This document shows positions 10,791-64,000 of a stretch of DNA of 64,000 nucleotides, in pieces (positions within the stretch are counted from its first letter, which is position 1; every line of letters starts with the position of its first letter). A program made the position numbers and the translations under genes. Below the pieces are notes generated by a model. The model worked only from the letters and a program-made list of their open reading frames with translations. It did no database searches and was not told the origin of the DNA. The DNA is from Enchytraeus crypticus. Its lineage: Eukaryota > Annelida > Clitellata > Enchytraeida > Enchytraeidae. Location of the stretch: assembly GCA_905160935.1 (NCBI GenBank), contig CAJHZI010000513.1, positions 2,009,001 through 2,073,000 on the forward strand, in the 5' to 3' direction.

Positions 10791-10968
10791 CGACGCTTGA
10801 CAACCGGACAACTTGAGGTCGCATCCTGACAACTTGAGGTCGCACCAAGATAACTTGAGATTTCATTCAGACAACTTGGAAGTCGTATCCAGACAACTTG
10901 AGGTCGCAGCAAGACAACTTGTGGTCGTAGTTTAGCAACTGTAAGTCGATTCCAGAGAACTTGTGGGA
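10790..10968. repeat. ~23-bp minisatellite
   Basis: Seven or so degenerate copies of AGACAACTTGAGGTCGCA plus a 4-6 nt spacer. The minus-strand frame over it (10,769-10,981) is a by-product of the repeat. Confidence 0.8.
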
Positions 10969-11271
10969 GGCTGCAATTCACTCAAGAAGTAACGATGTCC
11001 ACATGACCCTTTTACCTTCCCTACAAAGTGTGGTTGTTTTTAAATTATGCTTTAGTTGTTTCATAACTTAGTTGCTTACAGCTATGTACCTGCAATATTT
11101 GCGATCACAGAGAACCACAATATTAAAATAAACACATTTTATTATTTTATTTTCATATGATTTTTACAAATACGTTTATTCAACACAATGTTAATTTAAA
11201 TTATGTAGCATATTGAAAGCACGAGATGATGGAATTAAGTGACCATTCATAAAGCGAATCAATTTATTCAG

Positions 11272-11318
<47 letters not shown>
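11272..11318. repeat. (CT)n microsatellite
   Basis: About 20 CT dinucleotides inside the inverted-arm unit. Confidence 0.95.
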
Positions 11319-11320
<2 letters not shown>

Positions 11321-24573: not shown

Positions 24574-24599
24574 CACAGTAGTCTACTGAACTGTTTCTC

Positions 24600-43049: not shown

Positions 43050-43917
43050 TCGTTTTATGGGAAGGGAAAAGCATCTCTTAGCAGTATTTCATCGGGTTGG
43101 GTAATTATGATTGTTTTGTGGAGGTAACAAATGCGCCAGTAAATGTGCAGGGTTGTTACAGATGGCCTTGAAAAGATTATTGTCAGCAAAGTTACATAGA
43201 TCCTCAAAATTAGATTCCTTACTGTAGAATCCAGCTCTCCTTGCCTTCTTTAAAAAGGTTTCAAGACGGGTTCTCTCTTCAGCATTTGTGAAGCCCCACC
43301 AAAACTGGGAGGCATATGGAAGCTTAGAGAGTGTGGAGGCTTGAAAGACTCTCTGAAGAAGATCATTTGCCAAACCTTTACTACGTAAAGAATAGAGCGC
43401 AAAAATGTTGCTCGAACACAAGCTAATGATGTTTGTGATGTGAGCAGAAAAAGAAAAGTTATCAGATACTATGACACCTAAGCATTTGATGTTAGAAACC
43501 CGCTCAATTCCTTCAAGGTGTGGGACATCTCTTATCTGCCTTTTTTGCTTGGGTAATTGGAAGAGAATTTCTTTTGTTTTATTTCGATTTAATAGTAGAT
43601 TGTTAGAGCGGGACCAGTTTTCGATATGGACTAATTCCTCTTCCGTTGAGTGAAGGTTAGAGGCAGGCACAATCAGGTATGTGTCATCGGCATATTTGAA
43701 CAAAGAGTTTGTAGGCTGTAGGGTTTTTAAGTCTGATGTAACAAATGACAAATGCAGTTGGTCCAAGGGCTGATCCTTGGACTATGCTGGCATTGATTGC
43801 TGCTGATGACGACGTTTGACCATCAAAGATAGTGGTGTGTGAACGGGCCGAGAGGAAGCTGGCAATCCGCCCATTAATGTTGCTAGGCACATCCAGGGTA
43901 CACAGTTTATCAATCAT
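43050..43917 (-). pseudogene. LINE reverse transcriptase, 5'-truncated and frameshifted
   Basis: Two overlapping minus-strand frames together give the RT palm. The upstream frame carries INASIVQGSALGPTAFVI (the QGS-x-LGP block). The downstream frame carries FKYADDTYLIVP, the YADD catalytic box, then NRNKTKEILF, IKCLGVIVSDNFSF and the thumb and C-terminal region ending HLLPPQNNHNYPTR. The frame changes near 43,735, so the enzyme is broken. Endonuclease and N-terminal parts are absent. It resembles CR1/Jockey-type LINEs. It lies just upstream of the Ly6-type gene on the other strand. Confidence 0.9.
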
Positions 43918-44228
43918 TTATATCGTTATTTTAACCGTGATTGCAGGGTATTCGATACGTAGGCCTACATGAATTCCTTAGGCTACTGTTATAAGTAAAA
44001 CCAGTTATCCACTAGTTATCGTCTAGTTATCCACTAGTTATACATTTGCCGTTAATTTTGATATATCGTATATAGAATTTCATTACATAATTCAGAATCG
44101 ATTAATTTAGCACTGAAATCGGATTAAAGAGCCCTAAGTACAATATAAGCAGTAAACCGATTCATGGATAAGAGCAGATTAATTATTCAACCAGTTGAAG
44201 AAATACGACCAGTTGAGCGAACTATGAG

Positions 44229-44237
44229 TATAAAATA
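44229..44237 (+). promoter_or_regulatory. TATA box of the Ly6-type gene
   Basis: TATAAAATA lies 24 bp before one ATG (44,253) and 42 bp before the in-frame ATG at 44,271. If transcription starts about 30 bp downstream, only the second ATG would be in the mRNA. A looser start site would include the first, which gives a better signal peptide. Confidence 0.55.
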
Positions 44238-44252
44238 GCGGTTCCTCAGGAT

Positions 44253-44307
44253 ATGTGCTTTACCATTTGGATGACGATTTTTGCTTTGCTTCTGTGCACC
44301 TGTACAG
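44253..44307 (+). CDS. Ly6/three-finger gene, exon 1 (signal peptide)
   Basis: Encodes MCFTIWMTIFALLLCTCT plus the first base of an Ala codon, then a GT donor (ACAG|GTATGT). Spliced to 45,124 it gives a junction ...LLLCTCT-ALECYSC, a typical signal peptide with cleavage just before the first Cys pair of a Ly6 fold. The intron is phase 1, as in known Ly6/uPAR genes. The exon is too short to stand alone; it is supported by the TATA box upstream, the donor, the matching phase and the peptide. The alternative start at 44,271 would leave a very short signal sequence. Intron 1 (44,308-45,123) has an (AATC)n run at 44,325-44,490. Confidence 0.7.
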
Positions 44308-44324
44308 GTATGTAGCCAGCGTTA

Positions 44325-44490
44325 ATAAATAAATTAATCGATCAAACAATCAATCAGTAAATAAATCAGTCAATCAATCAGTCAAACAATCAAACATTCA
44401 ATCAACTGAGCGATCTATCGATCGATCAATAAATAAATTCACTGAATGAATAAATAAATGAATGAATGAATCAATCAATCAATCAATCAA
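44325..44490. repeat. (AATC)n tetranucleotide repeat
   Basis: AATC/AATA/GATC-type tetranucleotides, imperfect, in intron 1 of the Ly6-type gene. Confidence 0.85.
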
Positions 44491-45123
44491 CTGTTCTGTC
44501 TATCGATCAAACGGTCGGTCGATAGGTCGCTCTGTGTCGTGGGGCAATTCATACGAGTAACTCAATAGGTATTAACGATTATTTTATTAACATATTTTTA
44601 TTTATACTGATCTTTATATTGACCGTTAGACTAATTGGCTATAATCATGTCGTTACTTAGCATTCTATTAAGTCATCATTGAAGAACTGTTAAAGTCGTA
44701 GTTTTCACTAGTGTCTAAGCTAGAATTAAATTGAAACTATTTAGAGAATGTAACCTTGAAATAGGGGCATCGCCGGCTGATGGCTTTCTTGCTAGATTCC
44801 ATCCTCATTTCATACATCGCCAACAATCATGGTAACCAAACAAATGGCATTACCTACAATTATTTGTATTCATCAGACTACTATGAATTACATGCACGCT
44901 CTTTCTATGTGATCCCGTTTCTTAATTTGTTTCTAATTATATTTAAAACCTACTAAGAGATATAAATTTAAAAATTTCACCTTGTTGCGCCATTTTCTAA
45001 AAATTACCTAGCCATGTAATCCTATAATGCTACAATACTAATTATAAATTGGATACTAATTTTAAAAATACTTAATAATATTAACTAAAATGAATAATAA
45101 ATTTTACAATATTTTGTGCTCAG

Positions 45124-45633
45124 CACTGGAATGCTACAGCTGCTACCACATAGCTAGCGACTCCAATGAGAGAGTGCGCACTGGTTCTGCCCCTGGTACC
45201 CCTGGTGCTTCCCCTGGTGCTTCCCCTGGTGCTGCCCCTGGTGCTGCCCCTGGTGCTGCCCCTGATGCTGCCCCTGGTGCTGCCCCTGGTGCTACCCCTG
45301 ATTCTGCCCCTGGTGCACCTGGTGCTGCCCCTGATGCTGAACTTCGTGCTTCCCCTGATGTTTATCCTGGTGCTTCGACTGATATTGCCCCTGCGGCCGC
45401 CCCTGGTGCACCTGGTGCTAACCCTGATGCCGCCCCTGGTGCACCTGGTGCTGCCCTTGATGCTGAACTTGGTGATGCTTATGGTGATCCGAATGCTGAG
45501 TTCACTGACGACTTCGAGCAACCATGGCACGAGGATTGTCTGCTGAGACCCAAGAGAACGGAGGTCTGTTCGTCGGGGGACATGGTGTGCGGCAAGCAGG
45601 TGGGATTTGGGAGGAGGAGTAACAGTTCTTCAG
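45124..45633 (+). CDS. Ly6/three-finger gene, exon 2
   Basis: Acceptor TTTTGTGCTCAG|CACTGG and donor TCTTCAG|GTGAGA are both good, and the 510-nt length keeps phase 1 at both ends. The peptide starts LECYSCYH, the first Cys pair of a Ly6/uPAR domain. It then has about 95 residues of Ala-Pro-Gly repeats (GAAPGAAPDAAPG type; protein residues 39-135), coded by a 12-bp GGTGCTGCCCCT minisatellite. The domain resumes with HEDC, TEVC and DMVCGKQ (Cys 157, 167, 174). The repeats sit between Cys 2 and Cys 3, where the first finger loop should be. A family member of the quiver or sleepless type is plausible, but I cannot assign an orthologue. Confidence 0.75.
45187..45475. repeat. Coding 12-bp minisatellite
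   Basis: GGTGCTGCCCCT units with GAT, TCC and ACC variants, plus GGTGCACCT half-units. In frame with exon 2 and encoding Gly/Asp-Ala-Ala-Pro. Confidence 0.9.
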
Positions 45634-45689
45634 GTGAGAAATGAACCAGATGGAGTGAAAGAATATACGAACAAGTTAAAGCTTAACCC

Positions 45690-45790
45690 AGGTTTAACGT
45701 CTGCTCGATAGCATGTCAGTGACGGGAGAGCACTATACCTTTTGATCCTACATCTGTTGAATAATTTTCCAACAGGTCACTGATTCAGTC
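45690..45790 (-). mobile_element. SINE fragment in intron 2
   Basis: On the minus strand, TCTCCCGTCACTGACATGC and GACGTTAAACC match the shared SINE body. The head is diverged. Confidence 0.5.
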
Positions 45791-45795
45791 CAATG

Positions 45796-47165
45796 TGTAG
45801 ATATGCGAATGAGCGACTTAAAGTATGAGCAAAATGATATGAGCTTGTGAATGAGTAGATGAATTAACAAATTTGTTGAACTCTCTCTCTTAGTGCACTG
45901 CCTACTGGCAGGTCCATGGTACATAACGCCTCCACTCTTCTCTGTCTTCCGCCTTCCTCTTCATTTCCACATATGAGTGGGTCTTTAAATCATCTAACAT
46001 ACCTAATCTCGGCCTGCCCCTGCCTCTTTTTCCTTCCATTCTACCTTCTATGACCTCTTTTAATAGACCTTCCCCCCTTAGAATGTGTCCTATCCATCTC
46101 TTCTTCCTATTTCTTAATACATTTATCAACTGTCTATCTGTGCCAACTCTCTCCAGGACTTCCTCATTTGTAACCTTTTGAGTCCAGCTAATCCTCTCCA
46201 TTCTTCTCCAAATCCACATTTCCAATGCCTCCAGTTTCCTAATATCTTCCTTCCTTAAGGTCCATGTTTCACATCCATGCAATAGCGTGGTCCAAACCAA
46301 AGTTTTCACTATCTTTATCTTTGTGTCTTTCTTTAGACTTTTTGTTAATAGTTCTTTTCTGCTACCAAAGGCCGCTTTTGCTTGTGCAATCCTACTGAAT
46401 ATTTCTGTCTCACATTTTCCATCATCGGTTATAGTATGACCCAAATATTTGAAACTCCTTACCTGTTCCAATTTCGTACCATTTATTGTGATATTAATTT
46501 CACCTTTATTATTGGACACTCTCATAACCTTGGTCTTTTTTATATTAATCTTCATGCCATATCTTAGAGCCGTATCATTCAGCCTATCCATTATCTTCTG
46601 CAATCCAATCTCGCTGCCCGCTACCATTCCTTGGTCATCTTGTTAAACTATTAACTAAATATACAGAGATGTGAATGAGCGACTAATTGTAAGAGAATGC
46701 GAATGAACCACTGAATGTATGAGCATGTTTATGAACCACTGAATATATGAGCTTGTTCATGAGTCGCAGAATGCATGAGCTTGTTTATGAGCCTCTGAAT
46801 GTTGAGCATGTTTATGAGCTACTGAATATTTGAGCATGTTTATGAGCCACTGAATATATGAGCATATTTATGAGCCACTGAATATATGAGCATGTTTATG
46901 AACCACTGAATATATGAGCATGCTTATGAGCTTCTTAATGAGCATGTTTATGTTTGTGAGCTACTGATTGTCTGAGCTTGTTTATGAGCCACTGAATATA
47001 TGAGCATGTGTATGAGCCACTGTATATATGAATATGTTTATGATCCACTGAGTATATGAGCATGTTTATGAGCCACTGAATATATGAATATGTTTATGAT
47101 CCACTGAGTATATGAGCATGTTTATGAGCCACAGAATATATGAGCTTGCTTATGAGCCATTAAAT
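45796..47165. repeat. 28-bp minisatellite split by a LINE
   Basis: Units of the type GAGCATGTTTATGAGCCACT plus GAATATAT (about 28 bp) fill 46,655-47,165. Diverged units with ATGCGAATGAGCGACT and GAATGAGTAGATG occur at 45,796-45,862, on the other side of the LINE. Non-coding, inside intron 2. Confidence 0.85.
45883..46639 (-). pseudogene. LINE (endonuclease-RT) C-terminal part, 5'-truncated
   Basis: A 240-codon minus-strand open frame (45,904-46,627). It reads IMDRLNDTALRYGMKINIKK, then KYLGHTITDDG, LKKDTKIKIVKTLVWTTLLH, GCETWTLRKEDIRKLEALEM, WIWRRMERISW, RKKRWIGHILRGEG and the stop after YVPWTCQ. This is the connection/C-terminal region of non-LTR reverse transcriptase proteins. The catalytic palm is missing through 5' truncation. 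Almost identical 9-of-10 flanks, TTGTTGAACT at 45,873-45,882 and TTGTTAAACT at 46,640-46,649, look like a target-site duplication. The open frame suggests a fairly recent insertion. It lies antisense in intron 2 of the Ly6-type gene. Confidence 0.9.
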
Positions 47166-47454
47166 TATAGTCGTCATATGATAGAATGATAGAAATTATT
47201 AGAATTAATAAGTGGTTCAAAGCAAATGCATAATTGCTAAAAATAAATAATTTGTGAGATATAATAATTATCCCCCAGAAAAATTTTAAGATAAAATAAT
47301 TTTCTTAGTGAATGGAGATGATGAAAATACACTACATGCTGACTGTTTAAAGTTGTTCCGATATTAATTCTAAATTTTTTGGTACTGTTATTATTCTTAA
47401 TAATCGAATTGATAAAGCAGTACATCATCATAATCATCTTCCCTTCGATCCTGT

Positions 47455-47610
47455 TAAACTTGGGTCGGGTTTCTGAAATTTTTGTAGAAATGTCTGGAAC
47501 CTAGGCAGTCACCCTCGAATGCCCGTTCTGACTTTGGTTTGAATCTTATTTCTTAGTGGCCTTTTACGTCACGTGCAGTCTATGGTTGTTCTATTCTTCG
47601 GCAACCCGGA
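47455..47610 (+). mobile_element. SINE-like dispersed repeat
   Basis: GGTTTGAATCTT could be a tRNA B box. The following TTTTACGTCACGTGCAGTC and GGTTGTTCTATTCTTCGGC resemble 10,565-10,625. Weak evidence, but the two-copy match argues for a repeat. Confidence 0.4.
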
Positions 47611-47732
47611 CACAACACGAGTAATATCACTATTTCTAATTTAATTCATCTTAATAATTAACACCGTTTTCTTAAAATGTTGTTCAGAACTTCTCAGAAA
47701 CAATTGATGCGATTTCATTTTGTATCATTTAG

Positions 47733-50700
47733 GAGTTAAACAAACAGCGCTGATCACCTACATTTTGAGAGGCTGCGTTAAAGCACAGCTGCCGTCGAAG
47801 ATAAAGAATCAATGTCTCCTCGTCGAAAATAACGTGTACTTTCCTTTCCTTCCATCAATCGTTCAAGTCTACATCACTTCACTACCTGCTGGTCAGCTGT
47901 GTACTTGTAATACGTCAAAGTGTGACCCACCGAATATGTTTATTGTGCTAGACTTAAGCGAGGTAGCTGCGTCTCAGCATTCTGAGGTAACTGCGTGGAC
48001 TAAGAATTCTGGAGCCTATTTAGGTACTACGGAACAAAATTTGATTACACCGGGTGCCTCGACGGTTTTAGAAAATTCAGTTACGTTTAATAAAGACTTA
48101 ACTTCTTCAAAAGATCAGCATGGAGAAATTGCAATCAATGATACGAGGGTGTCGATATTTCTAGAACCTTACTCCAAAGATTCTACGGATTTCTTTCCTG
48201 CTACGAGAAGGAATGCAGAAAGATTTTCTACAGTTAATTCGAACAAACATATAAATCCAACTCGACCATCACTAGATTATTTGAGCGATCATGATAACGA
48301 AACGGATGTATACGTCTCTGTAGGAAATGTCTCGGGAGAAAATAATTTGAATGAAGCTTACGCCGATAATGTGACCAGTATGGTTTCATTTTTAAATGGA
48401 GTTTCAAGTACAAGTGCTAATAAAGATATTGCGCACGGATTCGGAAAACTAAAAAATGGCCCTTCATTAAAACGAGTCAATCTTTTTGTTCTTACTAGAA
48501 TGGTTTCCAGAGGAATAACTACAAATAGTAGTGTTGCAAGAGCAATAACTACAAATAATAGCATTGCTAAAGGAATAACTGCAAATAGTAGCATTACTAA
48601 AGGAATAACAAAAAATAGTAGCATTGATGGAGGAATAACTAAAAATAGTACCATTGCTGGAGGAATATTTATAAATAGTAGCATTGTTAGAGGAATAACT
48701 ACTAATAGTAGCATTGCTAAAGGTATAACTACGAATAGAAGCATTGCTAGAGGAAGAACTACAAATACTAGCTTTACTAGAGGAATAACTACTAATAGTA
48801 GCGATACTACTGTGGACTATGCCAGTGCAAGGACTACTATCTCACCTTATAAATCAACCATTAACCATTATAACTCAACATTGGATATTCTAGATAAACA
48901 AACAAAATTAGATGTCACTGATGGATATGGTACTTCACTAAAAGACATTACAGAAAACAGTGTTCATAATAGTGACGTCGAATTTAAAGTATTTTCTCCA
49001 AATGATGAAGCAAGCAGTAGCACTGATTTTTCGGGAAAAGGGAATTTTCTAAAGAATGTCACTGGTAATATGTTAAAAGCACTGGCTACTTCGGCAATTG
49101 GTGAATGGAAGAATGCTATTGAGAATGACGAAGACTACGAAAATTATACTCCAGATAAGAAAAGAAAAATCTCTATATCTGCCTATATACCTTTCAAAAG
49201 TGGCAATTTAAATGGAATTAACACTGGGAGAAAAGATGATTTTAAATTTGAAACTTTTGATAATGGTCTTAACTTTAATATTACTACTGAAAATGCTGAT
49301 ATAGGGCGTAGTGCCGATAGAATTACAGATGTCGTAAATAATATTTCAAGAATTGGTGTTGCAAACTATTTAATCGATTTCAATTATCAAGCATTGAACA
49401 ACTCCAGTAGGAGAAGAAATCTGTACGATAGAGTAATATTTAATCCAGACACTGAGAATTATGCTACTGGAAGAAGGATAATCAGAAGTGTGCCTGACAG
49501 AAACGTTAACTCACTAGAAATTCGAAAAACTAGCGAAAAGAAATTGAATGCTTCACCAGGAGATGATTTTCAAGGTGTAGTTTCTCCTAGATTGGAAATA
49601 AAAATTAATCCAGGACCATATCCTAGAGGATCCCTGGGATATGATGATTCGGAAAATGGTACTTTAGCCAAATGGGATAAAATTTCAGTATTACGTGTTT
49701 CTAAGGCCATTGTAAATAGTGTTGACAATACAGAAATATCTAGAAAAAATTCGTCTTCTACAAAACATAAGGTTAGTAAAATACGCATGAAAAGAAGTAG
49801 TGATTCCGATTCTACTGAAAATGAAAAGATATTTGGTGTTATTGTAAAGTCCGATGCTAAAAATGATGCCAATGATGACAAAGCTGGAGTATTTTACAGC
49901 ACAGGTGCTAATGCTTCAACCAGTGTTTCAGCAAACAGAGTCAACGTAGTTTCAACTACTGTAAATTATTTGAAAGAAAACATTGTTTCTGAAAAGTATA
50001 AGAGTTCCAATGCGAACAAGTTAAATGAAAATATTGAAAGTAGTCAAGAAAATAGCGGTTTACAGACAATATCAGGAAATGATACCTTGGTATCTGATGT
50101 TCAAAGCGTTACGAAAGTTGCTACCAAGGAAATCGATGTTTCACCAAATAGTGTTCTATATAGTATTATCGAAACTAGTACTCCTGTGGGATTCAATAAC
50201 TCAGGAAATATTGTATTAGATATTACTACGGAACTTTTTGTTTCTACAGGTGCTAACTCAGAACACATTGTCCCAAGTATAAAAGCTCAAGGAAATACTG
50301 ATTCAAAATTTGAAAATATGGCGAGTACCATTTCATTTGATTCCACTGAAAGACATGTGTTGTCAACTATTGCAACCACAGAAAATAGTACAATGGATAT
50401 TGCTACTGAAGGAAATAGCAACGCAGAAAACATCTCATCTTATTCTGCTGAAGTTCGTGATGTTACTTCTATTGCTGCCCTAGCAAATAGCACCATGTAT
50501 AATGGTACTGAAATATATAGCAATACAGAAAGCGTTATTGTGGGCAATACCGTCTCATTCTATTCTACTGAAGGACCATTTGTTTCAGCTAGTGTCGATA
50601 TAGAGAATATTACCGTATTTAGCAGTACTAGAGTAATTAGAAATTCTGAAAACAATATTCTTGATAATACCATTTCTTTTGATTCCACTGAAGGTCATGT

Positions 50701-51160
50701 GTTTTCAGCTATTTCAAACACAGAAAATAGTACAATGGATAATCCTACTGAAGGAAATAGCAACACAGAAAACGTCTCATCTTATTCTACTGAAGTTCGT
50801 GATTTTTCTTCTATTGCTGCCCTAGTAAATAATACCATGTATAATGGTACTGAAATAAATAGCAGTACAGAAAACCTTATTGTGGATAATACCATCTCTT
50901 TTTATTCCACTGAAGAACCATTTGTTTCAGCTAGTGCCGCTCAAGAGAATAGTACAGTATTTAGCAGTACTAGAGTAATTAACAATTCTGAAAACAATAT
51001 TATAGACAGTACCATTCCTTTTCATACAACTGAAGTTCGTGATTTTTCTGTTTCTGTCGCTCTAGAAAATAATACCATATATTATGGTACTGAAGTATAT
51101 GGCAATACAGAAAACGTCTCATCTTCTTCTACTAAAGTTCGTTTCCAGGAATTACTGCCC
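47733..51160 (+). CDS. Ly6/three-finger gene, exon 3: end of domain and mucin-like stalk
   Basis: Acceptor TTTTGTATCATTTAG|GAG in phase 1 joins exon 2; the earlier in-frame bases are intron, since no ATG precedes. The peptide completes the domain with RGCVK, KNQC and LCTCNTSKCDPPN. That brings the total to ten Cys (22, 25, 157, 167, 174, 203, 216, 245, 247, 252) in Ly6/uPAR order. After residue 256 it is Ser/Thr/Asn-rich and nearly Cys-free. Ten 10-residue repeats (GITTNSSIAK type, 48,508-48,810) are followed by 34-40-residue repeats (ENSTMYNGTEINSNTE type), packed with N-x-S/T sequons. This suggests a heavily glycosylated extracellular stalk. The frame stops at 51,161 because of an indel; the same repeats continue in the next frame. 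Confidence 0.75.
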
Positions 51161-52599
51161 TAGAAAATATTACCACATTTAAAGTTACTGAAGTAAATAT
51201 CAGTTCAGAAAACATTATTGTGGAAAATACTGTCTCATATTATTCTACTGAAGGTAGTACTGATCCAGATAATAATGCCATTAATGTCAGTACTGAAGTA
51301 AATAGCAATACAGAAGACGGTATTCCAGCTAATACCATCTCATTCAATTCTACTGAAGGACCAGTTGTTTCGGCTAGTGTCGCTCTAGAAAATGGTACCG
51401 AATTTAGCAGAACTAGAGCTTATAACAATTCTGAAGGCAATATTCTAGATAATACCATTTCATTTGATTCCACTGAAAGTCATATGTTTTCAGCTTTTGC
51501 AACCACAGAAAATGGTACAATGGATAATGCTACTGAAGTAAATATCAACACAGAAAACCTTACATCTTATTCTACTGAAATTCGTGATTTTTCTTCTATT
51601 GCTGCCCTAGTAAATAGTACCATGTATGACGGTACTGAATTAAATAGCAATACAGAAAGCGTTATTGTGGATAATACCGTCTCATTTTATTCTACTGAAG
51701 GACCGGTTGTTTCAGCTAGTGTCGCTGTAGAGAATAGTACAGTATTTAGCAATACTATAGTAAATAGCAATTCTGAAAACAATATTCCAGATAATATTGT
51801 TTCATTTCATACAACTGAAGTTCGCGATTTTTCAGTTTCTGTCGCTCTAGAAAATAATACCATATATTATAGTTCCGAAGTAAATAGCAATACAGAAATT
51901 GTCTCATCTTATTCTACTGAAGGTCGTGATCTTTCAGCTATTGACGTTCCAGAAAATATTACCATATTTAGTAGGGCTGAAGTAGATAAGTTAACTTATT
52001 TTACTGATGGACGCACTTTTTCATCGAATGTCTCTTTGGAAAATAGCACTACAGTTAGTAGAACTGAAGTAAATATCAATACTGAAAATAATAATACCAT
52101 GGCATTTTACTCTACTGAAGGACGTGCCACTACAAGTACTATTGCTAAAGATAATAATACCGTAACTGATATTTCTGAGGAAACTGGATCTTCAGAAGAT
52201 AATGTTCTTACTAGTGACACCGCAGTTTATTCAAAAGAGGAAGGTTTTACTTCAGCAGATGTTGCTGGAGAAAGTTATGATTTTCTGAATTTTACTGTAG
52301 GAACAAGCAATTCAGAAAACGATTTTCTAGATAATACCAGCGTAATTTATTCCACTGAAGGAAGTCCCACTACTAGTACTGTTGTTAGAGATAATTATAC
52401 GGTATCTGATATTTCTGAAGAGAATAGAAATTCAGAAGGCGATGGTCTTGCTACTATCACCCCAGTTTATTCAACAGCCGGAAGTATTATTTCAGGAGAT
52501 GTAGCAAGAGAAAGTCGTGATTTTCTTAATTCTGCTGAAGAAAGTAGTTACTCGGAAAATAATATTCCAGATAGTACGATCACAATTTTTATTCACTGA
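51148..52599 (+). CDS. Mucin-like stalk continued in shifted frame
   Basis: The repeats go on without a break from 51,136 in the next frame: ENSTVFSNTIVNSNSENN, STEGPVVSASVA and similar, about 480 codons to a stop at 52,597. Compared with neighbouring units, about 4 nt are missing near 51,140. That explains the shift by mutation or assembly error. Alternatively TTCGTTTCCAG|GAATTAC could be a splice acceptor at 51,149, but no good donor at a usual distance was found. Repeat order (A, B, C, D units) is the same before and after the break, so this is one gene. Confidence 0.65.
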   Translation, partial: GITALENITTFKVTEVNISSENIIVENTVSYYSTEGSTDPDNNAINVSTEVNSNTEDGIPANTISFNSTEGPVVSASVALENGTEFSRTRAYNNSEGNILDNTISFDSTESHMFSAFATTENGTMDNATEVNINTENLTSYSTEIRDFSSIAALVNSTMYDGTELNSNTESVIVDNTVSFYSTEGPVVSASVAVENSTVFSNTIVNSNSENNIPDNIVSFHTTEVRDFSVSVALENNTIYYSSEVNSNTEIVSSYSTEGRDLSAIDVPENITIFSRAEVDKLTYFTDGRTFSSNVSLENSTTVSRTEVNINTENNNTMAFYSTEGRATTSTIAKDNNTVTDISEETGSSEDNVLTSDTAVYSKEEGFTSADVAGESYDFLNFTVGTSNSENDFLDNTSVIYSTEGSPTTSTVVRDNYTVSDISEENRNSEGDGLATITPVYSTAGSIISGDVARESRDFLNSAEESSYSENNIPDSTITIFIH

Positions 52600-53704
52600 A
52601 ACAAGTATTGTTCAGCTAATGCTGCTATAGGCTAACAAGAAACACTTTGTAGGCACCGCTAGAAATACTGAATCAGAAAGATTTGTTCTGAAAATGATGT
52701 CTATGATGCTTTTGAGAATATGATAACAGAATCGGTGTTAGAGTTCTGCGACAACGCTGAGGCCACTATAAAAATGTTGATGTCAGATAATGTCATTTCA
52801 GACCGTGAAATCGAATTAGGGTTTACTACTTGTTGATTCGGAAAAGGCATTATTAAGGTGCTAGTGAAAAGAGCGATTCGAGACATGACTTTGATGAAAT
52901 AGCATTGAAGATAGTACCCACTGAAGGTAGCTCTGATTCGGGAAATGCCGTAGAGGATAATACACATCTGCAGCAAGCGTGATTCGAGAAATTACTTAAT
53001 AGAATGATGTGAAATCTATCTTACGTCAAAGTATAATGATTCAAAACTTGAGATTGAAGAAAATGCCTTCCTAGTCTTTTTACTAAAGGTAGCGGTATTT
53101 CTGCAAAAGATAGTTTTAGAATTGGTATCGGAGATAGTGCTTCTGCAGAAAAAAATAATTCATAAATGCGATTAGAAAATACTGTCGAATTTCATTCCAC
53201 TACTGAAACCGGGGATTCTGAAAACATTTCTCTAGAAATTGGTATCAAAGATGGTGTTCCTGCCGTCAAGAGTGGCTCAAGAAGTGACGATCAAGAAAAT
53301 ATTGTCCAATTTTATTTTACTATGGGCAGCGGTTGATTCTGGAATTGAAATTCTTGAAATATATGTTATAAAAATATATCTACAGGAAAGAAACATTCAG
53401 GAATTGAGATTATGAAGAAATAGTTCCATTTGAATTTTACTAAAGAAATCGACGATTCTTTAAGGACCATAGAAGACGTAGTATGAATGAAAAAACTGAA
53501 GGAATGTCCAAAAATACCTCTCAGAACAAAATTAGAATTTAATTTTACTAATGCCGATGATTCTGGAAATGATATTCTAGAATCTAAAAGTCTTACAAAT
53601 AATATCGCCGCTAATGGACTTCAGAAGTATTTTTCGAGATAAACTCTCCCGCAAATGCTAGTAAAGACTTAATCTTCAATAAATTCTGTATCAATCTCAT
53701 TGAG
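52600..53704 (+). pseudogene. Decayed stalk repeats
   Basis: Fragments of the same repeat vocabulary (TCCACTGAA, GAAAATATT, GGTAGCGG strings) recur, but the frame changes several times and stops are frequent. One open piece runs from about 52,692 to 52,833. This is either lost coding sequence now in an intron or 3' UTR, or damage to the whole gene. Confidence 0.55.
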
Positions 53705-53871
53705 AGGGAAGTGATGACGATAATTCTTCGACTGAGACCTACAACACTTCCCGTCGACAGAGGAGTGCAGAGTGCTGCCAACACCGAGGAGGACTCGCTT
53801 ATACTTGTTCTTCCCTTGTCCTGGCCTTCCTCATGGAAATTCTGGTCAGTATATTATCTCATTCATTCTGA
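53705..53871 (+). CDS. Possible last exon with hydrophobic tail
   Basis: After an acceptor-like TCAATCTCATTGAG, a phase-1 frame reads SDDDNSSTETYNTSRRQR, then SAECCQHRGGLAYTCSS, the hydrophobic LVLAFLMEILVSIL and SHSF-stop at 53,869-53,871. A Ser/Thr-rich linker with a C-terminal hydrophobic segment would suit a GPI-anchored or membrane Ly6 protein. A poly(A) signal follows at 54,147. The donor that would feed this exon is not identified, and a 70-codon frame overlaps it. Confidence is therefore low. Confidence 0.35.
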
Positions 53872-54146
53872 CTTCTTTTATACTGAACGCGTGTTCGGTG
53901 GTTTTGTTAAGCGGCTTTTATAGAGATATCGTGCTACGGTAAATTTGCTACTGACTATCATAGGGTTTCTTTCGTTGATGAACTGTTTGTTACCTGTAAT
54001 ATTGCTTATCGTAGTGGAAAATTACTGGTAATGCAAGTGACAAACACGGAAAATGTTCGAAGAAGTTAGTTGTAGAGGCGGGTTTAGCATTGTTTAGGCT
54101 TAGAACCCGTGACGGATATAAATTAGCCTTGGAAAAATATTTATGA

Positions 54147-54152
54147 AATAAA
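54147..54152 (+). terminator. Candidate poly(A) signal
   Basis: AATAAA about 275 nt after the hydrophobic-tail stop codon. It would end the Ly6-type transcript if that exon is real. Confidence 0.35.
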
Positions 54153-54199
54153 TATAAATCTAAAGGCATTTCATTGGAATTTGCTTGCTACATCGTTGA

Positions 54200-56229
54200 A
54201 CGGGTGAAAGTTACGGGATGAAATTAGAATAGTTAGTACCTTTGAAATGAAAGGACCCTGGCGAATATTGAAAATTACAAAAAAACGCGTCATAAATTTA
54301 ACTAAAAAGAGAATATGTATATTATACTATTTCTCTAAGAACGAAAATCTTTGTACGATTAAAAACAGTTAGTCATTTAGTTAAATTTTCTAAATACATT
54401 TCACTCTTTACTTGATAAGTGCTCAGTACGTTCATCCTAAATTGCCTGCAATGTAGCAAAAGTAGTTTATTCGGTGACATGGTAACTGCCCAGAAATTAC
54501 CGATGTTACAAATACGATGTTCTAATTGGAATACGCAAGTGCTCTTTTAATAGCCTATATTTGCTGTTTAACTTACGTATTTGTGAATGTTTCTATACTC
54601 CGCATGTTCTTAATGCTTATGTGATAAATAAATCCTATTTAATCGTCCTCTCCACCAACTGTAAAGGCTTTCCAATTCACAATTAATCTCGAGTATGATT
54701 TTAGCGTCAATTTTGATAAAGCCGCTGGACGAGGCCTATGACATAATCACTCCAGATCCGATCCTTTCCGTGTAGCATCATCTGCAGGTTTCAAAGAGCC
54801 TGTATAAACAAAATTACGAAGCATTTTCTTTAGTCTTTAGTTATTTTTCAATTAGACTTATGTAGACTTTGTTTCAAAAGTTTCATGAATATCAGAATGT
54901 TAAAGCTCTATACGTTGTCGTCAAATATAATAATTCATATTGTCTAAATGATTGTCCTTGGTAATATACTGTTATGTCATCTTACTGTATATTCACTTTT
55001 AATTTTACACATTTAAACTCTTTTGCCATTTAATATCAAATGTCCATGCTACCGATCTTGTGAATGTGATTGTCCAAGAAGTACATTCTGATTCTGATTA
55101 GTTGGCCTAAGATCGAAACAACGTATCAGAAATAGATCAGTAAAGTTTCGGACGTTCCTTGACGCCTACACATTGAGCTATCTAAATCCTAAAATAATGC
55201 TCAAAGTTCCACTGGAATTATACAAGACCTCTGCTAAGTTACCATCACTATATAATGTAGCTCTAATAGTCATGGAACCATAATATTAGTGTAATTAAGG
55301 TATTAAAGATTTTTTTGATTTTCCGTAATAAAAAATCATTCCGTGGAATTCTGAAACTGGAATGTCTATTGAACGTTGTATTTCAGTTTACTGCCGTGGC
55401 AATCGGTATTGCACTGGGGCTGACAGCACCTTAATGATATTAGGCGTGCGGCTATGTATTGGTTCATCTTCTTTAGAAAGGGTAAACAGTAACATTTCTA
55501 CTTCATTGATAATTTAATTTACCATTAAACAGGATTTCTAACCAGCACCTAAAGCAAGGCCAATTTCATTGCGAGTTGAATGTCTGATATTATTACTACT
55601 CTAACTTGTGTGTGTGGTTAACTAAATATCTAAAATGTAATAGTCAATTTTACACCATAGTATCAACTAAACATCAACATAACATATAATATATAACAAC
55701 AATTAGAGTGCCAAGTTCAATGACAACATCGAGCACTATTGAGACAAAATCAAGCCGGCGAGCAAAAAAAAGAAGGTCCAAAACACGGTGCACAATTCCA
55801 AAATCCAGAAAATAACAGAAATAACAGTATCAATCTACGCATTAATATTTTATAAAACCAATATAACCGCCTACAGATAATATAATACTTAAAGTAAGAT
55901 AGAACCCAAATTTATCTGCATATTCTCAATTAAGTTTGTCTTTTATAAATTTGGATCCAAGCACGTATTCTTATTCGTCGGTGTCTTTCATCTACTCACG
56001 TGCCATATCGTGTATCATGGAGCACTCCAGTGACCAATAATTCATTTTTTAACAGAGTTAATCTATACTGAGGAAATGACTTTGGAAGGCTACTGAGGAG
56101 CTGAGTATCGATATTTGATTTTCATATCTGTGACCTGCGTGTTTTCAGAGTTGTATTTTGTCATACCTAGCAAGCTAAATATTGGTTGTTGCAACAGCGG
56201 TCTGAATTTACCAGAACAGCTACCAAGTT
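54200..56229. other. No recognisable feature
   Basis: AT-rich DNA. I searched it for first exons of the downstream Lys/Gln-rich gene and found none that I could support. Confidence 0.45.
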
Positions 56230-57520
56230 TCGTTAGTCTAATCCTTCTTCAAACTTAGGTAGCAGGAACAAGGGAAGAAAGCTAAGGGCTTATTTCAATC
56301 CCTCATCCTGATTACAACATCCAGCTTGTTTTTAAAACTATTCATTGACACCGCGTTCACAACTTCCTACTCAAAGAGTTCCAATCTATCAATCCCTATG
56401 AGAAAAATAAAACTTCCTAGTCTCCTCTAAACTAGGCTTAAACAACTGATAGCGATGACCTCTTAAACCTTCTTAGAGATTGAAAAATGTGTTGCTCTTA
56501 ATTCGGCAAGCCCGCATTAAATAAAACCTCTATAAGATAACTCTATTTCTCCTGGTTTCCAGGGTTGTCAGTTGAACTGTCTTTAGCCTCTTCTCATACT
56601 TAATACTTTGAATTCCCTAATAGTTTTTTAATGCTCTTCTTTGCATTCAATAAGTTGAATAGCCTTCTCTAGTGAGGTCTCAAACTGACAGACAATACTC
56701 CAGATGAGTTTAAATCAAAGATTTATACAATCTTAAAACATGCCCTTATCTCGACTTTTGAATGTTCTCTTTATTAGTCCTCAGGTCCTATTGGCTGCTT
56801 TAACAGCCACAGTTCATTGTCTCCTCACTTGAGGTCCTGTATATATATATTATCTCTAAATCCTTCTCCTCATTCCTACTACCTTCAATATCTTATTATT
56901 ACAACATATTCTTTATTAGGGTTATTTTTAGCAAACCTGAATTACCTTGCACTTGTCCTTCTTGATTCTAACCCCATTGTGGGACCACTTACTTCGCAAG
57001 CCAAGTCCGGAACCAATACTGGTCACTTTTTTGTTCTTTCATTCAAATTTTTCCAAATAGTTTTGTATCATCAGCAAACTTCAAGATCATATTAATATTT
57101 CTGTTGTTCTATATCGTGTTCTGACGATAAAAATAGGCCCCCCAACACTCACCTGCAGCACCCCCGAAGTTACCTCCACCAACCTGATTAGCCTCACCCG
57201 CGTAACCCTCTGCATCCTCCCCTTAACCAATCTTCTTATCCATTTGTACAATTTCCCATCTATCCGCAAGACTTAATTGTAAGTAGAAGTCTCTTGTGAG
57301 TGAATTATCAAAGCCTTTCTGAAATCCAAGTACACTGCATCAAGTCTCTTCCTCCTCTATCCCACTCGTCACTTTCTCTAAAAGTTAATTAAGTTAGTAA
57401 GATGACCTTTTACTAATGAATCCATGATGAAAGATGTTCTAAGATGTTGTATTTCTCCAATGACTTACTAACGCATCCCTTATTATACTCTCATGCTCTG
57501 TGCATAATTGTGGTGTAAGG
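56230..57520 (-). pseudogene. Decayed LINE reverse transcriptase
   Basis: Read on the minus strand from 57,520 down, RT motifs appear in order but in changing frames. DAVYLDFRKAFD comes first (motif A, near 57,310-57,345). GKLYKWIRRLVKGRMQRV and AEVTSGVLQ-like follow (57,140-57,260, degraded GVPQGS). MILKFADD comes next (catalytic box, near 57,080). Far downstream, LKTVQLTTLETRRNR-like and GHRYQLFKP with a FYFSHR-like motif (56,340-56,580) form the typical LINE C-terminus. Multiple indels and stops make it dead. CR1/Jockey-like. Confidence 0.8.
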
Positions 57521-57996
57521 CTCCCCGGTCTATACATTTACATTATTCGGGTCATTTGCCGATTGAACTAAGATTGCAAATAGGAATTTATTTTTTTGAG
57601 GAAATTGTGTCTTTCTGATACTACTTGTAAATACTTTAATTGTTTTAATGGAGAGTCGTTGCCATTGATAAGCATAAATACTGCTTCAACATTATAATCA
57701 GGCCTATAACTGTACCTTCCCCAGGGATCTTACGTTTTGAGATTTGACTTTTAGAGTCATTATGCGAAACTACTTTGAACGTTCGCTAGAAATCAATTAA
57801 GGTTTATTTCTTATTTTTAGTTTTATGTGAGGAGTGTTGCTTGCGTCGTAAATTTTTTCAGCACTACTTGTGTGTTTACTTTTATGTTGTATTGAATTTG
57901 TTTTTTTTTTGTCTTGCTATCTGAGTGGTGAAATGAAAGCTAATATATATATTATACATACATATATATATATATACATGTCTATATATATATATA

Positions 57997-58035
<39 letters not shown>

Positions 58036-58307
58036 ACCGTACATGTGTTCCGAGGTTAACTCTCATTTCCCCTAGTAAATGAGTATTACATTGGACATCT
58101 TCCATTGAATTAGATTAGGTCAGGACGTTCCAATCATTGTCAAACTAATCTAATCATCCAAATATTTGATAACTTGATCATAGGCCTATATATATATATA
58201 TATTATATATATATTATATAAATAGTATATATAGTATATATATACATGGATATACTTGTAATATACATATTTATTGTATATATAGACGACATCTATATAT
58301 GCTATCT
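57521..58307. repeat. AT-rich block with (TA)n
   Basis: TA runs at 57,940-58,032 and short ones near 58,185-58,240. No gene was seen. Confidence 0.6.
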
Positions 58308-58500
58308 AAACTGAGGAAGGCAACGAGAAACCATCTCAGAAGCCACCATTTTTCTTCAGCTATAGGCTCAAGGTGGATAGGCATAGACTGTGTGAAGGAT
58401 TAATTTTTTGATCTAAGGAGTGCTCTTATGGATCGAGAAAGCAGACTTTAAAGTTAAGTATGAACTGTACCTTGAACCTGCCACTTGCAGTTAACTGAAG
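58308..58500 (+). mobile_element. Retroelement 3' end, plus copy
   Basis: About 190 bp from ACTGAGGAAGGCAACGAG to TGTACCTTGAACCTGCCA. It aligns as the reverse complement of 58,741-58,936. Confidence 0.65.
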
Positions 58501-58740
58501 ATATATGTAAATATATGTATATATACTATATCTATATATATATATATACGTGTATATATATATATAACGTGTATTATACATTATTATATGTATATATATA
58601 CATGTATATTCATTATATATATATATTATATTATATATCTATTATATATATATTATATATATAATATATTATAGTATATTATATATAATTAATAAATATA
58701 TATAGTAGATATAATAATATAGATCTTCTTCTTCTTCATG

Positions 58741-58936
58741 CCAAAAAACAACTGGCCAAGGGCAGGTTCAAGGTACATATTCATACTCAAAATCTGTCTT
58801 CTCGCTCCATAAGAGCACTCTTAGATTAACAAGTTAATCCCTCACAAAGTCTATGCTTGATCCCTTAACTTATGTAGTCTATAGCTTGGGAAAATATGGT
58901 TTCTGATGGTGTTTCCCCGATGCCTTCCTCAATAGA
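58741..58936 (-). mobile_element. Retroelement 3' end, minus copy
   Basis: On the minus strand: GAGGAAGGCATCGGGGAAAC, AGAGTGCTCTTATGGAGCGA, ATGTACCTTGAACCTGCC, then a (GAA)n tail at 58,728-58,738. The tail and the shared YVPWTCQ-like 3' end tie it to the LINE family at 45,883. Together with 58,308-58,500 it forms an inverted pair around a TA-rich spacer. Confidence 0.65.
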
Positions 58937-59169
58937 ATACATCAATTAACCAATAACACTTGGCTAACACGTTAGTAATCAATCCCCAATCAAAAACGGT
59001 CAATCCGTAGATGCATTTGAACTTCCAAGCGATCTTGTGTCCGTACCCATCCCAAAATACATATATATATATATATATATACTATAATTATTAAAGTATA
59101 TAATATTATTTAGCATATAAATTTATACGAGTTATTTATTTTATAATTCGTACCAAGTCTCCTATATTA

Positions 59170-59171
59170 TA

Positions 59172-59243
<72 letters not shown>
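59170..59243. repeat. (TA)n microsatellite
   Basis: Long TA run ending about 95 bp before the giant exon. Confidence 0.95.
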
Positions 59244-59246
<3 letters not shown>

Positions 59247-59337
59247 AGATTAATTAACTTAAACAGTTTTTCTCGCTGGATCCATAGCTAGCTGATAGTT
59301 ATAGATAAAACTGACCTGGATATTTTTGTTCACGCAG

Positions 59338-62300
59338 GAAACATCAACAATGGTGATGGCAACCAAGTTATTCCGCTGGCTCCAATTCTAGGTGGAGAAA
59401 ATGGAGAAGGTCACTATGTGCCTTCCACGGAATATATCCATGAAAACTCAACAATGTTTTCATATACACAACCGCAACATCAGTGGTATACAAACTGTTA
59501 TACTTTGGGTTTTCAGTTTGTCCCCTTGGTGTTATATCCTCAAACAAACACAGTATCTTATCAGTTATATAATGAAGATTTGTATACTGAAAGTGCTAGG
59601 GCTTTATCGGTTGAGCAAAATCAACCGACTTGTCGGGATAGCAAGTTTCAAAAGATACCAGGAGTTGGTTATCCTACAAACAAAATGACATTGACTCTCG
59701 ATTCAGGAAAACAAAAAATTACAAATGATTATGAAAAAGACGTCAGTAAAACTGAAATTCCACTTGAAAAATGTCTTTCAAGCAAATCAGGAGCGCCGTT
59801 TGCAATCATTAACCAAGAATATTCGACTCCGCATTTATCTCAATTACTTAAAGCTTCCTTGAGCAATGAAGTGGGCCTAGATAAGCCTGGTCGTTTTTCA
59901 AAAGGCAATGGAAATAGTTGTAAGGCTACTTCAATAAACTTAATCAAACCAGACAACCAAACTCTAAGAAAAGCTAGCTTACAGGAAACTAATTTGCCAC
60001 ATCCACGTCTAGAAGCAGACATACCGATGACTCGTGAACGTTTAAGAATGAATAAAATAAAGAAAGATTGCAAAACTCAAGCCAAGGGAGTTAAGTTAAC
60101 TAAAGCTTTGACTCAAGGCAATTTGTTAGCTGGAACAGAATGTAAGGTACAAAGGAAGAAGCAGAAGAAAATGCAAACACAATTACAAAATGGAAATCAC
60201 GATACAGCATATGATAACACACCAAAAATGTCTCAAAATGTAGCAATGAATAATTCGCAACATAATGAACAAGCTAAACTGGATAATAAAGCGAGGCAAA
60301 AACATGACAAACCTCCAAATGTAATAAAGGATAAATCTCGAAATAAAAAAAGAGAAAAACCTTCATCTAGAGTTCAAGCCAAGGCAAGTGACGAAACTCT
60401 AGAGAAACCACAGAAAGTAATAATATTTAAACCTGAAAAGAAAGCCGAAGTAACGTCACTGGGTGAAATAAAAGCCTTGACACAAATTAAGGCGGAACCG
60501 AAACTCAAGCCACGCAGCAAAATGAAATCCAAACCGCAAAAGAATCTCAAGTCAACAAATATAGCAAAAACCGAGATTCAACATAACTATCAAATAATAT
60601 CTCAAGAGAGAGTTCATGATACAATTGATTATAGTGTACAAAAGGAGCCTGAAGATAGCCATCATATAAAGTCTCTGGAGAATGAAAAGGATTTGAATTA
60701 CGATACTGTTATCGAAAAGCCAGCAGATATTAATGCATTGAAGTCAAAGAGGAATGTGGAAAGAGTGAAAGAGGAAGTAAAATATGGGATTGATGAGCCA
60801 CTGTTTAAAGTACAAGATGATGCGCAAGAAGAAATGCAAGAAAAATTGCAATATGAAGTAACAAAAGATTCTCAGAATAAAGTCCAAAAAAAGCCAAAAA
60901 CTAAATTACAAAACAAAACAAAGGATTTACTGCCTGCAAAGCCATTGCATAAAGTCCAAAATAATATGAAATCCAAAACATGTGGAATAGAGCCATCAAA
61001 GCCTCGACATAAATTACAAAAAGATCTATATGAAAATGCGCAATCCAAATCACAAAACATAACACCAGCAAAACCCATAAAAGAAAACACACAAGTGCAA
61101 GAAGATTTTCTGGATAACGGTACAGCCGGAACCCAAATTAATAACAAGTCAAAGCTGCAACATACAGCACTAGAAAATTCAGATGATAGAATTCAAGACA
61201 AACTAAAAAGCCACATTCAAGTAATGTCGCAGCATCAAGCACTTGAATCCCCTCAGGATGAAGCACGAAACAGTGGATCAGATATATTTCCAACAAAGCC
61301 GCAAAATAAAGGACAAGATATACAGCAAGATAAAATGCAAGACACCACTAAATATACAATGAAAGCAAAGCCACTTCAAAAAGCACGAAGTAAGCGGGAA
61401 GATAAATTTCAAACCAAAACAAATCATACATTGCAAGTAAAGTCGGATCATAAAGTACAAAAAGATAGAAAGCAGAAAGTGTGTGCCAAAGAACACAATA
61501 TGGTGATTGCAAAACGACAACAAAAAGTACAAGAAAAACCAATAGATGAAGTACAAGATAAAACCAAAGAGAAATTTCTGACAGAGTTAAAGGAGAAGTT
61601 TAATGCAAGGCCACTACATAATGTACAACAGCAGTCTCAAGTTAAATTACAAGATAACGCACAAATTAAAACGCAAGAATATTCACAGCGTAAAGTTAAA
61701 GAAAAGAAGAAGGATAAAGTTCAAATAAAGCCGCCTCGACACAATGAAACAAAAAATGTACAAAATAATGTACGTGACAACACTCAGCACATAAAGCCAG
61801 TTAAATCAATATCGTGTGTACAGAAAGAACCGCAAGGTAAAGTGCATGCCAAACCACTAGAAAAAGTGCAAATAAAAGCAAAACTAAAAGCGAAAAACAA
61901 TAAGGCAGGTATATTCCCAGCAAAGCCGCAGTATATAATAGCAGAAAAGCCCCGAGATGAAATCCAAGCTATAACACAAGACAAATTGCCAGTAAAGATA
62001 CAACTTGAAGCACAAGATGAGGAACAAAACAAAATGCAAAACCAGATTGAAAACATCATGCCATCTAAGCCTATTCATAAAATGCAAGCAAAGCCAGAAG
62101 CTCAAGTGCAAATTAAAACACAGAATATAGTGCCAGCAAAGCTAAAACCTACAGTACAAGAAAATTCACAAAATAAATGGCTTGACAAGGTACAAGACAA
62201 AGTCCTAGATGCAGCTGAAGTTAAAACGCCTGCAAACCAACTACTTGAAGGACAAAAGAAAACGCATGATAAAGTGCCAACCAAAACCGAAGGTGAAATG

Positions 62301-64000
62301 CAGAGAAAACCACAACATAAACTACAAGAAGAACCACCAAATAAATTGCAATTCAAAACACGAAATGAGGTGGCCATAAAGGATGGGCCTATTGCACGCG
62401 AAAAAACAAAAGATAAACTACATGACAAAGCACAGTATAAATTGAATGCCAAGAAACAAAATAAAATACAAGAACATAAAGAGGCACTAGCAAATTCGAA
62501 ATTTAATAGCAAAGAAGTGTCGCAAGAAAAAGTTCAAGATAAAGCTAAATCGCAAATGCAAGTAAAAGAAATGTCACAAAATAAAATGCAAGACAAAGCT
62601 CCAGTTAATTTGAAAGCCAAATCTCGAAATAAATTGCAAGAAAAGCCGAATGAAATAGTAAAGAGGAAAACAAAAGAAAAGTTGCAAGCTAAATCTCATG
62701 TTCATGTACAAGGAAAAGCGCTAAATAACGTACAAGATAAAATGCAAAACAAACTAAAGTCCCTAAATAAAATAAAAGAAAAGCATTTGGATAGAATACA
62801 AGCGGATTCGCAGGATAAGCTGCAAGCAAAGTCGCTAAGGAACATAAGTGAAATGTCTCAAGATATAGTGCAAGATAAAGCAAAATCGATAAATAATTTA
62901 AACGAAATGGCGCATGATAAGTTGCAAAAAGAATCGCAAGCTAGCTTGGGAACCATGATGCAAAACAGTATAGAAGAAAAGCCACAATATAATACAGAAT
63001 ATAAGGCGAAAGTGAAATCAAAACATAAAGTGCAAGCACAGTCGCAAAATAGGATAAAAGAAGAATTGGATCACCAAGTGCAACATAAAACAAATTTGCA
63101 AAATAATGTAAACGAAAACTCGCAAGACAAAGACAAGACTAAATATAAGATAAAAAAGCAGCAAGATAAGTTGCAAACGCAATCAAAATACAAGATTCAA
63201 ACAATGTCGCAAGTTACTTTAAAAGCAGAGCCACAAGATAAATTGCGCAAACATGTAAAGTCGACAAATACAGTAAATGAAAGGGCAGAAGATAAAGTGC
63301 TAACACAAACACAAGATAAGGATGAAGCAAAGTCTCAAAATAGCATAAAAGCTAAGCCAAAAAATAAAGGGCAAGACATGGCACAAGATAAATTGACAAC
63401 CAAAACGCTAAAGAAATTACAAGAAAAGTCGCAGGAAAAAATACCAGTGAAAACACAGGATAGGGTGATAATTAAATCACAAGATCAAGTGCAAATTAAA
63501 GCAGAATCTCTAACGGAAATGAAGGAAAGACTACAAATTCAAAAACTGACGAACGAAATAGATAAGGTACAAGAAAAGTCAGAAAAAATAATTTTTGAGA
63601 AGTCTCAAGGTAAAGTGCAAAGCAAAGCACATGATAGATTAAAGGTAAAGTCACAACATCCAAATTACCATAATGCAAATGATAAAGTACTAGACAGAGC
63701 AAAAGATCAATTTGCAATAAGCGCTCAACAGAAAATTAATGAAATGCAGCAATTTGAAATACAGCATAAAGGACAAGGCATAATGCCAGGAATACCGCTA
63801 CATAGAGTACAAGTAAACCCATCACAGTCAGTTCCTAACACTTTGGAGGACCATAAACAAGCAAAACCACTATATCAAGTGAAACAAAAGTTACAAGATG
63901 ATGCTCAGGGTAAATCGCAATATTTAGCGCCTCCAGACAGTTCACAACCGAAATCACAGCATAAATTGCTGACCAAGTCTCAAACCGATATAAAAGATAT
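59338..64000 (+). CDS. Giant exon of a Lys/Gln-rich octapeptide-repeat protein (partial)
   Basis: No stop occurs from 59,292 to the window edge. A strong acceptor, TTTTTGTTCACGCAG|GAAAC, sets the exon start at 59,338, phase 1. This gives at least 1,553 codons, and the 3' end is outside the window. About the first 480 residues are non-repetitive, beginning NINNGDGNQVIPLAPILGG and then Tyr/Gln-rich (for example YTQPQHQWYTNCYTLGF). They become increasingly basic. From about 60,808 the protein is a continuous array of degenerate octads, e.g. QNKMQDKA, RNKLQEKP, KEKLQAKS, with consensus Q-x-K-[VLIM]-Q-x-K-[PSTA], about 133 units. It is very rich in Lys and Gln and has few Cys. I do not recognise the family. 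No upstream exon was identified; the first in-frame ATG is at 59,454. Lys and Gln side by side would suit transglutaminase cross-linking, which is inference only. Confidence 0.85.
60808..64000. repeat. Coding 24-bp minisatellite (octapeptide array)
   Basis: Underlying DNA units of the type CAAGATAAAGTGCAAGCAAA plus 4 nt, strongly diverged, with the 8-codon register held over most of the 3.2 kb and only occasional shifts. Diverged units and a preserved frame point to an old array under selection. Confidence 0.8.

Follow-up and report, generated by a model that had tools for sequence, protein, structure and literature searches.

Giant proteins built of low-complexity repeats are already known as a kind. 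In the silk heavy-chain fibroins, a short first exon precedes a giant exon of repeats rich in Gly, Ala and Ser. Involucrin and other epidermal Gln/Lys repeat proteins carry short Gln/Lys-rich repeats within one large exon and are transglutaminase substrates; these vertebrate proteins are a few hundred residues long, with repeats numbering in the tens. The Balbiani ring proteins of Chironomus serve as salivary silk. The Balbiani ring genes are described as about 40 kb in size, with internally repetitive coding centres (PMC4192438). The rodent semen coagulum proteins are reported to combine a high content of Gln and Lys with a high pI (10.3 for Svp5) and to contain repeats of low conservation in which Gln and Lys flank a hydrophobic residue; according to the same source, internal duplication has enlarged the main coding exon of the REST genes, which diverge rapidly (PMC7556508). 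The motif Q-x-K-[ST] is named as a cross-linking site of mouse SVS3 (PMC6483057).

We analysed a stretch of 64,000 nucleotides (hereafter, the window), that is, bases 2,009,001-2,073,000 of the 2.5-Mb contig C420 of the annelid Enchytraeus crypticus, whose genome is represented by 524 Mb in 802 contigs. Beyond position 64,000, the coordinates given below continue those of the window along the same contig. The key features are the following:

44253..44307, forward strand: phase-1 signal-peptide-like exon (MCFTIWMTIFALLLCTCT/G) of a Cys-rich gene, from the signal-peptide exon scan.
59323..59337, forward strand: candidate 3' splice site, TTTTTGTTCACGCAG, 2.8 bits with a generic acceptor matrix.
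59338..64000, forward strand: giant open exon, the part within the window; it continues in C420 to 98,318.
59338..60806, forward strand: N-terminal part of about 490 residues, mostly non-repetitive and unique in the genome.
59454..59456, forward strand: first in-frame ATG of the exon, with A at -3, an alternative translation start.
60807..64000, forward strand: Lys/Gln octapeptide array, the part within the window, about 133 octads (lag-8 z 12.3).
From the window edge to 98,318, forward strand: array beyond the window; behind it, a broken tail reaches about 100,677 in C420.
98,319-98,321, forward strand: TAA stop codon of the giant frame in C420.

The preliminary description of this DNA had reported at least 1,553 codons open to the window edge and had judged such a stretch too long to stay open by chance. 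The frame, with codon starts at 59,337, 59,340 and so on, indeed runs through 1,554 codons without a stop before it reaches the window edge and, followed further along the contig, spans 13,009 codons between two stops (59,292-98,318), so that its approximately 39,000 bases amount to about 8 times the visible part. There are no N bases in the array. In the same DNA, the other two forward frames contain 738 and 1,371 stops, with longest open runs of 119 and 51 codons, and the three reverse frames contain 863, 405 and 297 stops, with a longest open run of 627 codons, that is, hundreds in every other frame vs 0 in the 12,994 codons of the giant frame. A chance open frame is ruled out by these stops together with the stop-free divergent copies described below, and the giant frame is very probably a real coding frame. 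To our knowledge, the exon would rank with the longest coding exons that run without interruption in any animal. Counted from the first Met, the product has a mass of about 1.50 MDa and a pI of 9.8. The span 59,340-100,700 includes 15 donor-like sites of at least 4.5 bits within the exon, several of them at 7.4 bits, and therefore the giant exon may be spliced internally. A strong donor-like sequence of 7.4 bits, GAAG/GTAAGG, recurs in the array, for example, at 86,965, 89,089, 91,399, 92,671 and 94,915.

An 8-residue register, distinct from the heptad of coiled coils, had been proposed from the window and emerges clearly from the autocorrelation of the translation. Within the window, identity at lag 8 is 0.189 vs 0.084 for shuffled sequence (z 12.3), and for the part of the chain that starts at residue 490, the z is 36.7; in both cases, lag 8 is the highest among lags 1-32. 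Lags 4, 12 and 16 are almost as strong because Lys or Gln sits at alternate residues. A weaker lag-8 signal is already present in the first approximately 490 residues (z 4.3). In the blocks tested, lag-7 identity is 0.039-0.054, below the 0.061-0.109 of shuffled sequence, and with the peak at lag 8, a heptad coiled coil can be rejected.

The alternation is equally apparent in motif counts, with 1,022 occurrences of [KQ]x[KQ]x[KQ]x[KQ] vs 172 expected, 907 of K-x-Q vs 354 and 764 of Q-x-K vs 357; KQ, QK, Q..K and K..Q are depleted. The motif Q-x-K-[ST] occurs 233 times vs 46 expected by composition, and this excess follows from the register because Q-x-K-[VLIM] is as highly enriched (252 vs 53). 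Lys makes up 20.7% and Gln 13.3% of the residues, Cys and the aromatics are very scarce, and the charge is net positive (2,990 K+R vs 1,867 D+E). Because the coding strand of the array is 50% A, the A-rich DNA could account for part of the Lys/Gln/Asn make-up as a by-product. The octads form higher-order units: those of the first half measure approximately 1,196 aa, those of the second half 58 aa. Residues 8,073-8,397 (locus L010-L011) contain, in the otherwise Cys-poor chain, 4 copies of GCILCxFC spaced 106 residues apart, which are possible metal-binding or disulphide points.

The preliminary description had recognised no family in this protein and had proposed a profile search of its N-terminal part. 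At Pfam-A cut-offs of E <= 0.01 for the first 500 residues and 0.001 for the rest, we detected no Pfam family in the first 500 residues or in five pieces spanning the remainder apart from a few codons where the pieces join. Among PDB sequences, there is no match for residues 1-1,554 and approximately 8,222-11,553, so that the protein stays without a recognised family for the parts searched. An AF2 prediction for residues 1-500 on their own yields a pLDDT of 37.1, and one for an approximately 300-aa block with five paralogous blocks yields 47.0, with low-confidence helices; neither is a confident fold. The N-terminal 500 residues match the genome only at their own position (11 of 11 candidates scored). 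A search of the genome with the array gives 7 matches, all in the giant frame, among the best 86 of 114 candidates, and in a second search, 67 of the 68 matches among the best 86 of 2,785 candidates fall in the array or its tail. The remaining match among these 86 is a weak, K/Q-rich one with 23% identity on contig C322; with the best 86 candidates scored, weaker arrays might exist elsewhere in the genome. In searches of an open-licence library, none of the listed titles and abstract openings described this giant Lys/Gln protein.

The copies within the array have diverged substantially. Three paralogous blocks of approximately 3.6 kb, compared pairwise (the pairs are not independent), differ at 648, 505 and 483 bases, that is, 18.3, 20.3 and 19.5%, with the differences spread almost evenly over the codon positions (e.g., 206, 217 and 225). 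If the same positions had changed randomly, 34.3, 27.7 and 25.0 stops would be expected in these pairs, and none is seen. Out of 2,512 block pairs, dN/dS was tabulated for the 580 with at least 40% identity and both members in one half; the medians lie at 0.63-0.84 for pairs from the first half and at 0.35-0.57 for those from the second. Among five of six aligned copies of the approximately 300-aa block, pN/pS is about 0.87, close to neutral. The punctuation motif PSQSVHDT...PAKP, considered as a functional site, was rejected, because a pN/pS of 0.92 vs 0.87 overall indicates no special constraint. No specially conserved Lys emerges either: in 57 blocks, the ratio of change at codon positions 1-2 between Lys and Asn codons is 0.99 (0.87-1.14). 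In the same blocks, the ratio for Gln vs His is 0.68, a biased value given that His is often derived, and Glu changes more than Asp (ratio 1.20). Our reading of these patterns is that the open frame and the make-up of the protein are likely to be under selection, and individual residues little.

We tentatively favour the view that this is a disordered bulk matrix or gel protein of the annelid, probably secreted and cross-linkable. Under this scenario, the main exon would be a single open frame of approximately 39 kb in a protein-coding gene, and the product would be a positively charged, intrinsically disordered chain of approximately 1.5 MDa in which, for long stretches, every second residue is Lys or Gln. 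The array would have grown by successive tandem duplication, from the octad to the 58-aa and approximately 1,196-aa units, with selection holding the frame open and the Lys/Gln-rich make-up in place and single residues only loosely held. Such a chain would most likely be a bulk structural product of a secretory tissue, contributing to a tube, mucus, a cocoon or a reproductive gel, where this length and charge, together with numerous Gln and Lys side chains, would give a swollen network, cross-linkable by transglutaminase or by ionic bridging. The sequence itself shows the frame, the register, the lack of stops in diverged copies, the absence of recognised domains and the presence of transglutaminase-domain matches in the genome; for the giant protein, we infer expression, secretion, cross-linking and tissue. 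A profile search of the genome gives six Transglut_N matches over the cut-off on 4 contigs, and because of these, the enzyme type is probably present; this, together with the seminal-coagulum and Balbiani analogues, is why the secreted, cross-linkable reading is favoured. The earlier suggestion of a possible cross-linked structural or secreted matrix role has evidence on both sides: the 233 vs 46 occurrences of Q-x-K-[ST] and the Transglut_N matches are in its favour, and the equal enrichment of Q-x-K-[VLIM] and the rate of change of Lys codons, no lower than that of Asn codons, are against it. In particular, site-specific Lys cross-linking is disfavoured because Lys is no more conserved than the matched Asn.

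The secreted-matrix reading has to be weighed, above all, against an intracellular one, in which the protein is a giant spacer or cytoskeleton-associated basic chain whose many weak Lys-rich repeats bind microtubules, actin or membrane. The net positive charge (2,990 K+R vs 1,867 D+E) is compatible with such a role, no signal peptide has been assigned, A stands at -3 of the in-exon ATG at 59,454, and there is a precedent in Plasmodium, where short Lys-rich repeats are described as targeting the erythrocyte periphery (PMC5207086). However, the chain contains no recognised anchoring domain, and near-neutral change of residues fits poorly with repeated binding motifs, so we regard the intracellular role as rather unlikely.

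A different challenge comes from the possibility that the gene is expressed and the array is a dispensable, runaway minisatellite, with the function confined to the first approximately 490 residues and the rest tolerated as ballast. The almost equal change at the three codon positions and the pN/pS of 0.87 are what ballast would show, and truncation at the C-terminus is evidently tolerated. Compared with paralogous units, which have 87-89% identity in this region, the array has lost 5 bases ahead of the stop at 98,319, and because this deletion ends the frame, the loss of the last approximately 790 codons was tolerated; no C-terminal domain was seen. Past the frame end, a further 2,356 bases of array follow in a different frame and reach about 100,677. 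The repeat-bearing frame of this tail contains at least 4 stops (at 98,506, 99,925, 100,273 and 100,540) and, judged by eye, shifts twice, near 100,345 and ahead of 100,540; the tail is not heavily decayed and retains one open run of 472 codons. Four stops in the 2.4-kb tail vs none in 39 kb make a useful internal control. The divergence of the tail is similar to or lower than that of the block pairs in the open array. Ballast need not stay open for 13,009 codons, yet 0 stops are seen where 25-34 are expected per divergent block pair, and the stretch behind the deletion does collect them. On this evidence, dispensability of the array appears improbable.

The 5' end of the gene bears on another alternative. 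The preliminary description had placed a consensus 3' splice site in front of the open frame; a candidate acceptor does exist, TTTTTGTTCACGCAG/GA at 59,338, giving a phase-1 exon start, but at 2.8 bits, it is fair rather than outstanding. No first exon with an ATG, phase 1 and a donor of at least 2 bits was found in 53,000-59,330, and a single donor reaches 3 bits in 53,800-59,330. A scan of 44,000-59,330 for an ATG, a hydrophobic core and a donor of at least 5 bits yields a sole candidate, the exon 44,253-44,307 with two ATGs; in the scans of this interval, no signal-peptide exon could be assigned to the giant protein with confidence. Judging from the sequence, translation might start either at the in-exon ATG at 59,454, where the weakly hydrophobic LGFQFVPLVLY begins 15 residues after the Met, or in a more distant exon.

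The neighbouring gene (44253-53868, forward strand) consists of a signal-peptide-like exon, a short Cys-rich exon and a long Ser/Thr/Asn-rich repeat exon. The Cys-rich exon (45,124-45,633) appears Ly6-like by eye, is not recognised by Pfam and carries an APGAAPDA insert. The repeat exon spans 47,868-51,163 and then, in another frame, 51,136-52,599; its frame is broken near 51,120 by a 4-base gap relative to the 342-bp neighbours. The giant exon could be an alternative or additional exon of this Cys-rich, mucin-like gene, with one promoter serving two repeat exons. The two share a strand, the giant exon is in phase 1, as are both donors upstream of it (5.9 and 7.7 bits), and no good donor lies nearer to the giant exon. 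Such splicing would require skipping about 14 kb, however, 47,868 is likewise an in-phase partner for the Cys-rich exon, and agreement in phase arises by chance in 1 of 3 cases. The exon 44,253-44,307 is phase-compatible with the giant exon, but its partner is more likely to be the Cys-rich exon at 45,124. We therefore give this linkage a low probability; it is not exclusive of, and would be compatible with, secretion into a matrix. Finally, although the DNA is A-rich and strongly repetitive, the notion of a non-coding satellite or an assembly artefact, open by accident, has virtually no plausibility in the face of 0 stops in 12,994 codons, stop-free divergent copies and the lack of N in the array.

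Several other features were noted around the giant gene. On the reverse strand, 23068-24576 is a single-exon forkhead-domain gene (Pfam, 127.7 bits), which we take to be FoxB-like. Two weak reverse-transcriptase matches (43089-43766 and 45902-46627, both on the reverse strand; 22.7 and 21.8 bits, below the Pfam cut-off of 29.6) are probably retroelement remains. Further along C420, 106184-106682 is a short-repeat open stretch, SKQLN.../NSSTV... in two frames, and 116,679-117,662 on the forward strand, about 18 kb downstream of the giant exon, is a candidate cytochrome P450 by eye. Contig C802 is the 15.2-kb mitochondrial genome, in which COX1 was identified by profile and the other genes by reading the translated frames; their order, all on one strand, is cox1-cox2-(atp8)-cox3-nad6-cob-atp6-nad5-nad4L-nad4-(rRNA stretch)-nad1-nad3-nad2. 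This is the common annelid order and points to an annelid. In annelids, mitochondrial gene order is described as fairly stable, and a single strand carries all the genes (PMC8245539).

More broadly, the locus might represent a megadalton, single-exon, Lys/Gln-alternating polyampholyte without a known relative, selected for length and make-up while its residues drift, and encoded by one of the longest animal exons; we consider this characterization possible but doubtful. If expressed, it would be a one-exon protein of approximately 1.5 MDa with the simple rule of Lys or Gln at every second residue, which could be copied as a material. The locus also offers a clean test of selection for length, with 39 kb of drifting residues without stops followed by a tail that collects stops behind a deletion. 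Standard annotation is likely to miss or fragment such a gene.

Among the known systems, the REST genes (Svs2, Svs3, Svp1 and Svp5) resemble the giant gene in the Gln/Lys-rich repeats, the high pI and the internally duplicated main exon. The semen coagulum proteins share with it the Q-x-K repeats, including QXK(S/T), although the excess here is not S/T-specific. The likeness is one in kind, with no homology seen or expected, and because the host is an annelid, we do not claim REST membership. Whereas REST proteins are encoded by a signal-peptide exon and a main exon, here the main exon is clear and a signal-peptide exon is not assignable; and unlike Svp5, a mammalian protein of 1,536 residues, the annelid protein has approximately 13,000. 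In size, the 39-kb open exon with repetitive coding is comparable to the Chironomus Balbiani ring genes, which differ in having four introns and in comprising several related genes, in contrast to the single copy found here. The likeness to involucrin is an analogy only. The fibroins are similar in possible architecture, but the repeats of the giant protein are charged and rich in Lys, Gln, Asn and Ser. What is new here, compared with all these systems, is the rule of Lys or Gln at alternate residues, the single exon's size, and a frame that is kept open while the residues drift.
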